Origin: Beijerinckiaceae bacterium
Lineage (GTDB): Bacteria > Pseudomonadota > Alphaproteobacteria > Rhizobiales > Beijerinckiaceae
Reading direction: 5' to 3'
NCBI GenBank assembly: GCA_947474545.1
Contig: CANJJI010000001.1
Span: 1-64,000 of the forward strand
Length of the DNA: 64,000 nt
Part shown: piece by piece, positions 33,221-62,734 of the stretch
Position numbering within the stretch: the stretch's first letter is position 1
Layout of the letters: each line of letters opens with the position of its first letter
Translations under genes and position numbers: made by a program
Notes under the pieces: model-generated
Databases searched by the model: none
Seen by the model: only the letters and a program-made list of their open reading frames with translations
Told to the model about the DNA's origin: nothing

Positions 33221-33413
33221 AACCTGTCTCCTGGCCGACCGAGGCTTCAGTTCATGCAGAAGCCTCTTGCGCCCCACACTTATGGAATGCAACCAGCTTT
33301 ACAACCGTACTTCGACACCGAAAATAATGTTTCGCATAAAGTTCGAAACAGGACGATTGCAATCCCGCGCGGTTTGCGGCATATACCGCCCGTCGCGCAA
33401 CCTGCGTGTGGAT

Positions 33414-59935: not shown

Positions 59936-61507
59936 ATGGCAATCTCGACTCGCTTGGTAATGCGTCAGGGGCAATCCCTGGTTATGACGCCGCAACTTTT
60001 GCAGGCGATCAAGCTGCTGCAATTATCTAACCTTGAGTTGATTAACTTTGTTGAACAAGAGCTTGAGCGCAATCCTCTGCTCGAAAGGTCGGACGACGCA
60101 CCTGCGGCTCTGGAAGATCAGCCAATTTCAGAAAAAGCCAGTGAGGACTCCGCTGGCAGCGACGATTTTGATGACCCGGGGGCTGAGGCAAGCGAAGGCG
60201 ATTGGGCCAGCGAGCGGCTTGAAACCAGCCAGGCGTCTATGGAAGAAAACCTCGGCACAGAAGTCGAGAACACGTTTGATTCCGACAAGACAGTGCCTGT
60301 TTCCACATCCCCCGGAGATGATGCACAATATACCGTCTCGGCTGGATCGATGGCCGGGTCCTCAGCAGGGTCGGATGAGTCACCAAATCTTGAAGCCTAC
60401 GTAGCGGCGCAGGTTTCCCTTGCAGATCACCTAGTGGCGCAATTGGCGCTAGCCATTCGCGATCCCGTTGAACGCATGATTGGCGAGATGCTGATCGATT
60501 CCATTGATGACGCCGGGTATATGCGCGAAAACATCCAGGAAATGGCTGGCCGGTTGGGTGTAGCGCCTGTGCGTGTGGAAAAAGTTCTCTCCGTCATCCA
60601 GACGTTTGATCCCGCTGGCGTGGGCGCCCGGAATCTGGCGGACTGCCTTTCCATCCAGTTGCGCGATGCCGACCGTTTCGATCCAGCTATGCAAGCGCTT
60701 GTTGCTAATCTTCCGCTGCTCGCCAAACGCGACTTCGTACAGTTGCGCCGCATTTGCGGGGTCGATCAGGAAGATCTGAATGACATGCTGGCGGAAATTC
60801 GGCGTCTGGATCCCAAGCCAGGCAGGGCCTTCAGCAACGCTGATGTTCAGCCTGTTGTCCCGGATGTCTTGATCCGGCCAGCTTCGGATGGGTCATGGCT
60901 CGTCGAATTGAATGCCGAATGTCTGCCGCGTGTCCTGGTTAATCAGACCTATGCCGCCCGCGTATCGCGAACGGCCTCAAGTGCTGCGGACAAGTCCTAT
61001 GTGGCCGAATGTTTGCAAAACGCCAATTGGCTAACGCGCAGTCTTGAACAGCGCGCACGTACGATTCTCAAAGTCGCCACTGAGATTGTGAAACAGCAGG
61101 ATGGTTTTTTTGCGAACGGGCTTGAGCATCTAAGACCGCTGAATCTCAAAACCGTCGCAGATGCCATCGGCATGCATGAATCCACCATATCCCGGGTGAC
61201 CTCGAACAAATACCTGTCGTGTCACCGCGGTCTGTTTGAATTCAAATTTTTCTTTACCGCTTCCATACCCGCCCAAAGTGGAGGCGAAGCTCATTCTTCC
61301 GAAGCGGTCCGGTTTCGGATCAAACAGATGATCGATCAAGAGAGCCACGCAGACGTACTCTCGGACGATGCCATCGTACTGCGGCTGAAGGAATCCAATA
61401 TCAACATTGCCCGCAGAACCGTGGCAAAGTATCGAGAAAGCATGAAAATCGCCTCCTCTGTGGAACGCCGGCGTGAAAAAGTCGCTAATATGCAAGCTGC
61501 GCAATAA
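59936..61507 (+). CDS. rpoN: RNA polymerase sigma-54 factor
   Basis: RQGQSLVMTPQLLQAIKLLQLSNLEL; VADAIGMHESTISRVTSNKYLSCHRGLFEFKFFF; RpoN box IARRTVAKYRE. Confidence 0.98.
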   Translation: MAISTRLVMRQGQSLVMTPQLLQAIKLLQLSNLELINFVEQELERNPLLERSDDAPAALEDQPISEKASEDSAGSDDFDDPGAEASEGDWASERLETSQASMEENLGTEVENTFDSDKTVPVSTSPGDDAQYTVSAGSMAGSSAGSDESPNLEAYVAAQVSLADHLVAQLALAIRDPVERMIGEMLIDSIDDAGYMRENIQEMAGRLGVAPVRVEKVLSVIQTFDPAGVGARNLADCLSIQLRDADRFDPAMQALVANLPLLAKRDFVQLRRICGVDQEDLNDMLAEIRRLDPKPGRAFSNADVQPVVPDVLIRPASDGSWLVELNAECLPRVLVNQTYAARVSRTASSAADKSYVAECLQNANWLTRSLEQRARTILKVATEIVKQQDGFFANGLEHLRPLNLKTVADAIGMHESTISRVTSNKYLSCHRGLFEFKFFFTASIPAQSGGEAHSSEAVRFRIKQMIDQESHADVLSDDAIVLRLKESNINIARRTVAKYRESMKIASSVERRREKVANMQAAQ

Positions 61508-61688: not shown

Positions 61689-62153
61689 ATGACCATTCGC
61701 GTAACTGGCAAACATTTTGATCTCGGGGAGGCAATGCGGACCCATATTCTCGAGAAGATTGATGCTGCGATCGGAAAGTATTTTGACGGCCAGGTCAGCG
61801 GGCATGTTGTCGTGGACCATGAAGGCTCGGGATATAGGAGCGACTGCACCTTGCATTTGTCGTCGGGCATTACTTTACATGCTGAAGGCAGGGCGCACGA
61901 ACCTTACGCGAGTTTCGATCAGGCGTCGGAGCGTCTCGAGAAACGTCTTCGCCGGTACAAGCGCAGGCTTAAAGAACATCACGGCAGTCACAACCATGCT
62001 CCCGCACAGTCTGATGACACAATGGCCAATTATGTTCTGGAAGCGCCGAACCAGGATGCTGAAGAAACACATGATTTCAACGCGGTCATCGTCGCTGAGC
62101 AATATTCATCTCTCAAGACAATGGCCGTTGCGACGGCAACATCGGTTGGGTAG
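61689..62153 (+). pseudogene. hpf: Ribosome hibernation promoting factor, N-terminal domain intact but C-terminal domain deleted/frameshifted
   Basis: MTIRVTGKHFDLGEAMRTHILEKID...RLEKRLRRYKRRLKEHH intact. ORF ends ...SSLKTMAVATATSVG*, while the other frame at 62126-62197 reads RCDGNIGWVDPGNESQKAVGARP*, matching the usual long-HPF tail. Confidence 0.85.
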
Positions 62154-62257
62154 ATCCTGGCAACGAATCTCAGAAAGCAGTGGGAGCACGGCCTTAAGCC
62201 AATTTCGCAATTGCGATTGATCACGAATCTTACAATACACCGCGATCGGACGGACGG

Positions 62258-62734
62258 ATGAGCCAGATGATGCATCTTCGAGACTTTATAGCCCTGAATG
62301 CCATTATGCCCTCGGTGAAGGTGTCAAATAAAAAGCAGCTTTTTCAGGAGTTCAGTACGCGTGCGGCCTTGATTTCGGGTATTGGCGAGCGCGATATTTT
62401 CGACGCTCTTTGGCAACGCGAAAAATTGGGCTCAACTGGTGTAGGTAATGGAATAGCCATTCCTCATGGAAAACTTGCGAAAGCGGGCCGCATGTTTGGA
62501 TTGTTTACGCGGCTCGAAAACCCTGTCGATTTCGACGCCATGGATGGCATCCCAGTTGATCTTGCCTGCGTTCTGATCGCGCCGGAATCAGCAGGCGCGG
62601 ATCATTTGAAAGCCCTGGCGCACGTTGCCCGCACGTTGCGCGATGCGTCGTTTGTTGCTCTTCTGCGCGCTACTCGTGATGAAGTAGGTCTGTTTTCACT
62701 GCTGACAGGCGAGCCGGCATCTTATGCAGCTTAG
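62258..62734 (+). CDS. ptsN: PTS IIA-like nitrogen regulatory protein PtsN
   Basis: LGSTGVGNGIAIPHGKLAKAGRMFGLFTRLENPVDFDAMDGIPVDLACVLIAP. Confidence 0.97.
   Translation: MSQMMHLRDFIALNAIMPSVKVSNKKQLFQEFSTRAALISGIGERDIFDALWQREKLGSTGVGNGIAIPHGKLAKAGRMFGLFTRLENPVDFDAMDGIPVDLACVLIAPESAGADHLKALAHVARTLRDASFVALLRATRDEVGLFSLLTGEPASYAA

Follow-up and report, generated by a model that had tools for sequence, protein, structure and literature searches.

The ribosome-hibernation protein HPF is regarded as near universal and as important for survival of starvation. Long-form HPFs, such as those of L. lactis (5myj) and S. aureus (5nd8), combine an N-terminal domain (PF02482) and a linker with a C-terminal domain (PF16321). 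The latter provides the interface of the dimer, in which conserved hydrophobic residues take part and the first strand of a monomer pairs with the last strand of its partner (PMC5620043). The contact between the two C-terminal domains has been described as crucial for the dimerisation of HPFlong (PMC6060826). Short HPFs, which possess the N-terminal domain without the C-terminal dimerisation domain, have been kept in beta- and gammaproteobacteria (PMC5620043).

The hpf gene described here lies in a stretch of 64,000 nucleotides (the window) from a genome of the Beijerinckiaceae (G000; 4.8 Mb, 286 contigs, 96% complete), which was compared with 60 relatives. The gene shares its N-terminal domain and linker with the long-form HPFs, adjoins rpoN and ptsN and is the ortholog of an intact long HPF in the sister species G019. 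Unlike the long form, however, its C-terminal dimerisation domain has been destroyed by a 94-bp deletion. In lacking this domain the product is similar to the short HPF/RaiA (YfiA) of beta- and gammaproteobacteria, but in G000 the loss is recent and has left a fossil behind, and the assembly is devoid of RMF.

The truncated gene and its out-of-frame remainder

The hpf ORF of G000 matches PF02482 (S30AE, the ribosome-binding N-terminal domain) over the full length of the profile (residues 3-95, E 2.2e-21), which agrees with the intact N-terminal domain proposed in an earlier reading of the window made from the letters alone (the sequence-only reading). The N-terminal domain (aa 1-95) is followed by a linker (about 96-132) and by some 14-16 residues that begin the C-terminal domain. 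The translation ends in FNAVIVAEQYSSLKTMAVATATSVG (also given as SSLKTMAVATATSVG), of which the last residues are a short out-of-frame TSVG in front of the TAG. A profile search for the C-terminal dimerisation domain, PF16321, gave no match in this ORF or anywhere in the 4.8-Mb assembly. The features of the locus are collected in Table 1.

Table 1. Coordinates (window positions) of the truncated hpf, its remainder and its neighbours
Feature	Position	Strand	Description
rpoN (sigma-54)	59936..61507	+	Intact upstream neighbour; three Sigma54 domains; dN/dS 0.035 vs G019
Truncated hpf	61689..62153 (incl. TAG)	+	154 aa; PF02482 match; aa 1-95 same as sister G019
Deletion junction	62126..62141	+	94 bp of sister G019 missing; breakpoint ambiguous over about 9 nt
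Fossil HPF C-terminus, other frame	62132..62197	+	DGNIGWVDPGNESQKAVGARP followed by TAA; dN/dS 0.043 vs G019; position of stop codon shared
ptsN (PTS EIIA-Ntr type)	62258..62734	+	Intact downstream neighbour; PF00359, E 1e-28; dN/dS 0.045 vs G019

The sister species G019 (L003) carries, likewise between rpoN and ptsN, a full-length hpf of 200 aa that has 94-95% amino acid identity and a C-terminal end reading SSLKTMAVATAVMELDMTGAPVVVFRHSSSDRINVVYRRGDGNIGWVDPGNESQKAAGVRR. Alignment with the hpf of close relatives, which the sequence-only reading had put forward as a check, reveals that 94 bp are missing relative to G019, corresponding to 31 codons plus 1 nt and hence shifting the frame near position 62126. 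The pairwise alignment runs at an offset of 0 to the left of the junction and of 94 to the right, with no further indel within the hpf ORF. Sequence matches to solved long HPFs place the C-terminal domain at about residues 134-190 of the G019 protein, so that the residues lost with the deletion (about 147-177) come from its central part. The internal out-of-frame deletion of the dimerisation domain, originally deduced from the ORF and its neighbouring frame, is thereby demonstrated against the intact gene of the sister species and of the rest of the genus. The ambiguity of the breakpoint arises because the flanks of the junction resemble each other (GT.GC.AC.G.A). A perfect short hairpin (GCCGT-TGCG-ACGGC, window 62124-62137), which may be due to chance, is also located at the junction.

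Beyond the junction, the frame starting at 62126 translates as RCDGNIGWVDPGNESQKAVGARP with its stop codon at 62195-62197. Each codon of this tail has its counterpart in the C-terminus of G019, DGNIGWVDPGNESQKAAGVRR, up to and including the homologous TAA, so the match is not a product of chance. The out-of-frame C-terminus that the sequence-only reading had placed at 62126-62197 holds as written, except that the junction contributes in part to the R and C in front of DGN, and only from the GAC codon at 62132 onwards is the fossil clean. Taken together, the gene occupies the same place between rpoN and ptsN as the orthologous long hpf of the relatives, carries a frame-disrupting lesion compared to these intact orthologs and retains the homologous remainder out of frame, as an hpf pseudogene would. 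Rescue by frameshifting was discarded, as a shift at the junction would give back DGNIGWVDP only and the 31 missing residues would stay lost.

As the frame is shifted and the central part of the C-terminal domain is missing, this protein is not expected to form 100S particles; given the known role of that domain, its loss of 100S dimerisation can safely be predicted. Binding of the 30S subunit, as proposed in the sequence-only reading, may be retained. No back-up copy of hpf was found in the assembly, in which PF02482 has a single match; the diverged short S30AE paralog present in several relatives is likewise absent from G000. With the genome 96% complete, a second hpf located in an assembly gap is possible but unlikely. 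RMF was rejected as a substitute, since none is found in G000 or in seven relatives. The baeRF family PF18844, used to look for a Balon-type factor, gave no match, which says little as this family may not be that of Balon.

Polarity and age of the deletion

The next closest relative after G019, G003, also carries a full-length hpf. The presence of the long form in both species shows that the short form of G000 is derived and not ancestral. A short HPF shared by close relatives, which the sequence-only reading had named as evidence against a deletion, was looked for and is not what G019 and G003 encode.

In the part of hpf that precedes the deletion, G000 and G019 differ with a dS of about 1.05 and a dN/dS of 0.03, and aa 1-95 of the N-terminal domain are identical. 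The neighbouring genes rpoN and ptsN, with values of 0.035 and 0.045, served for comparison, whereas lptB, truncated by the end of the G019 contig, was left out. The fossil tail, with a dN/dS of 0.043 relative to G019, looks as though it were still coding. There are 0 amino acid changes in its 16 core codons, whereas a tail free of constraint over the full length of the G000 branch would be expected to carry about 20 nonsynonymous changes. A rough Poisson bound (95% upper limit) restricts the unconstrained time to about 15% of this branch, an estimate drawn from one genome pair (G000/G019) at a dS near 1 with a simple Poisson model. Because the tail shows no loss of constraint, the deletion is very young and dates to approximately the final 15% of the branch. 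Consequently, the conservation of the N-terminal domain almost entirely predates the deletion and is no argument for a functional truncated product.

Loss of hpf in the genus and the order

Within the genus, hpf is long in 42 of 51 genomes and not long in seven, while two (G022 and G064) are unscorable. Four of the genomes, which form one four-species clade (G014, G065, G067 and G070; L091, L094, L092 and L093, respectively), have rpoN followed by ptsN with hpf wholly absent in between. In G062 (L095, minus strand), a remnant directly after rpoN consists of the start and the end of hpf, fused in frame as MGLRVLANTFRIGDG...HIIVYRRSDGAIGWVDP. As in G000, an internal deletion between rpoN and ptsN has left the gene ends in place, but in G062 nearly the whole gene is gone, the N-terminal domain included. 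The hpf of G006 (L104/L115, G006:C318) is apparently broken: a TAG interrupts its linker and its N-terminus cannot be recognised, although its position at a contig edge renders this case partly uncertain. Placed on an rpoN tree by a quick method, these states amount to four changes, namely in the four-genome clade, G062, G006 and G000; G064, the sister of G006, was scored as intact though its hpf is unseen, which leaves the count of four unaffected. Several of the genomes of the genus that lack hpf or carry a broken copy are metagenome assemblies.

At the level of the order, a survey of 149 genomes of at least 95% completeness found PF16321 in 127 and PF02482 in 140. Both HPF domains are missing from nine of the 149, eight of which are genomes of at most 1.5 Mb. 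The ninth, G056, is a genome of 3.1 Mb with a listed completeness of 100%. In genomes with the N-terminal but without the C-terminal domain, the match mostly spans about 300-308 bp, compared to 276-279 bp in long HPFs, as it does in a diverged short paralog. G116, a member of another family of the order, encodes an N-domain-only HPF (L117:2599-2973) that terminates in YKRRLKDH and is situated at the rpoN-hpf-ptsN locus, which indicates that clean loss of the C-terminal domain has also occurred elsewhere in the order. The locus is the same as in G000 and the C-terminal domain is likewise gone, but in G116 the sequence has diverged, no C-terminal fossil remains and ptsN begins only about 36 bp downstream.

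Decay, remodelling or artefact

The best explanation, to which we assign a probability of roughly two in three, is that a single-copy long-form hpf has recently lost 94 bp and that hpf is here at an early stage of its decay. The partial similarity of the flanks suggests that the deletion may have arisen by slippage between short direct repeats that are imperfect; it took out residues about 147-177 and shifted the frame, so that translation stops a few residues later. Pairing of ribosomes into 100S particles would be beyond the product, which could at best act through its intact N-terminal domain as a silencer of monomeric 70S ribosomes. The repeated loss or breakage of hpf in the genus is the reason to read the G000 allele as early decay. 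The type of lesion is ordinary; what makes it notable is its freshness, together with about three other cases of hpf loss or breakage in the genus.

The truncated product may nevertheless still work, its N-terminal domain being intact, and could be a functional short-form HPF in which the N-terminal domain and linker silence 70S ribosomes without dimerising them, the change having been tolerated or favoured. The identity of aa 1-95 with the sister species is compatible with such a role, as are the N-domain-only HPF of G116, at the same locus and without a fossil, and the short HPFs of beta- and gammaproteobacteria (PMC5620043). However, the deletion is too young for this conservation to speak for a present function, an S. 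aureus strain defective in dimerisation survives very poorly in long-term culture (PMC6060826), and the whole-gene losses in several relatives point to decay and not to remodelling, which renders a functional short form rather unlikely. It is more improbable still that the deletion is an artefact of assembly or binning, or a minority variant in the sampled population. The genome is split into 286 contigs, the deletion is known from assembled sequence alone and the named relatives are mostly metagenome assemblies; against this, the flank similarity of only about 12 nt is imperfect and too short for an assembly collapse, and a real lesion gains credibility from the independent losses of hpf in relatives. 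Furthermore, the deletion has clean flanks, and no other clear frame break was seen in the window between 20.8 and 64 kb, the part syntenic with G003 (the first 20.8 kb are without a counterpart in the G003 stretch compared). General assembly decay is not supported for this part of the window, in which what looked like a second break (at 33409) turned out to be a tRNA-Gly. An old and stable short form in the lineage of G000, with an out-of-frame match due to coincidence, has a negligible probability and nothing was found in its favour: every tree-near relative of G000 carries the long form, sister G019 and outgroup G003 rule out an ancestral short form, and the tail can be matched to that of G019 codon by codon as far as the shared stop, most changes being synonymous.

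Early decay of hpf remains the preferred reading. As a tentative and rather doubtful alternative, the allele might be a long HPF that has been turned, naturally and only very recently, into a functional short one, in a genus in which 100S dimerisation is dispensable and repeatedly lost. If true, it would be a snapshot of a step taken long ago by beta- and gammaproteobacteria and by G116. Among the roughly 50 species sampled from this genus, about four separate events have removed or damaged hpf, one of them so recent that the fossil of the missing half can still be read. Owing to these repeated and recent losses, the genus offers a natural system to ask if, outside the laboratory, it is of importance that ribosomes are dimerised and not just silenced.
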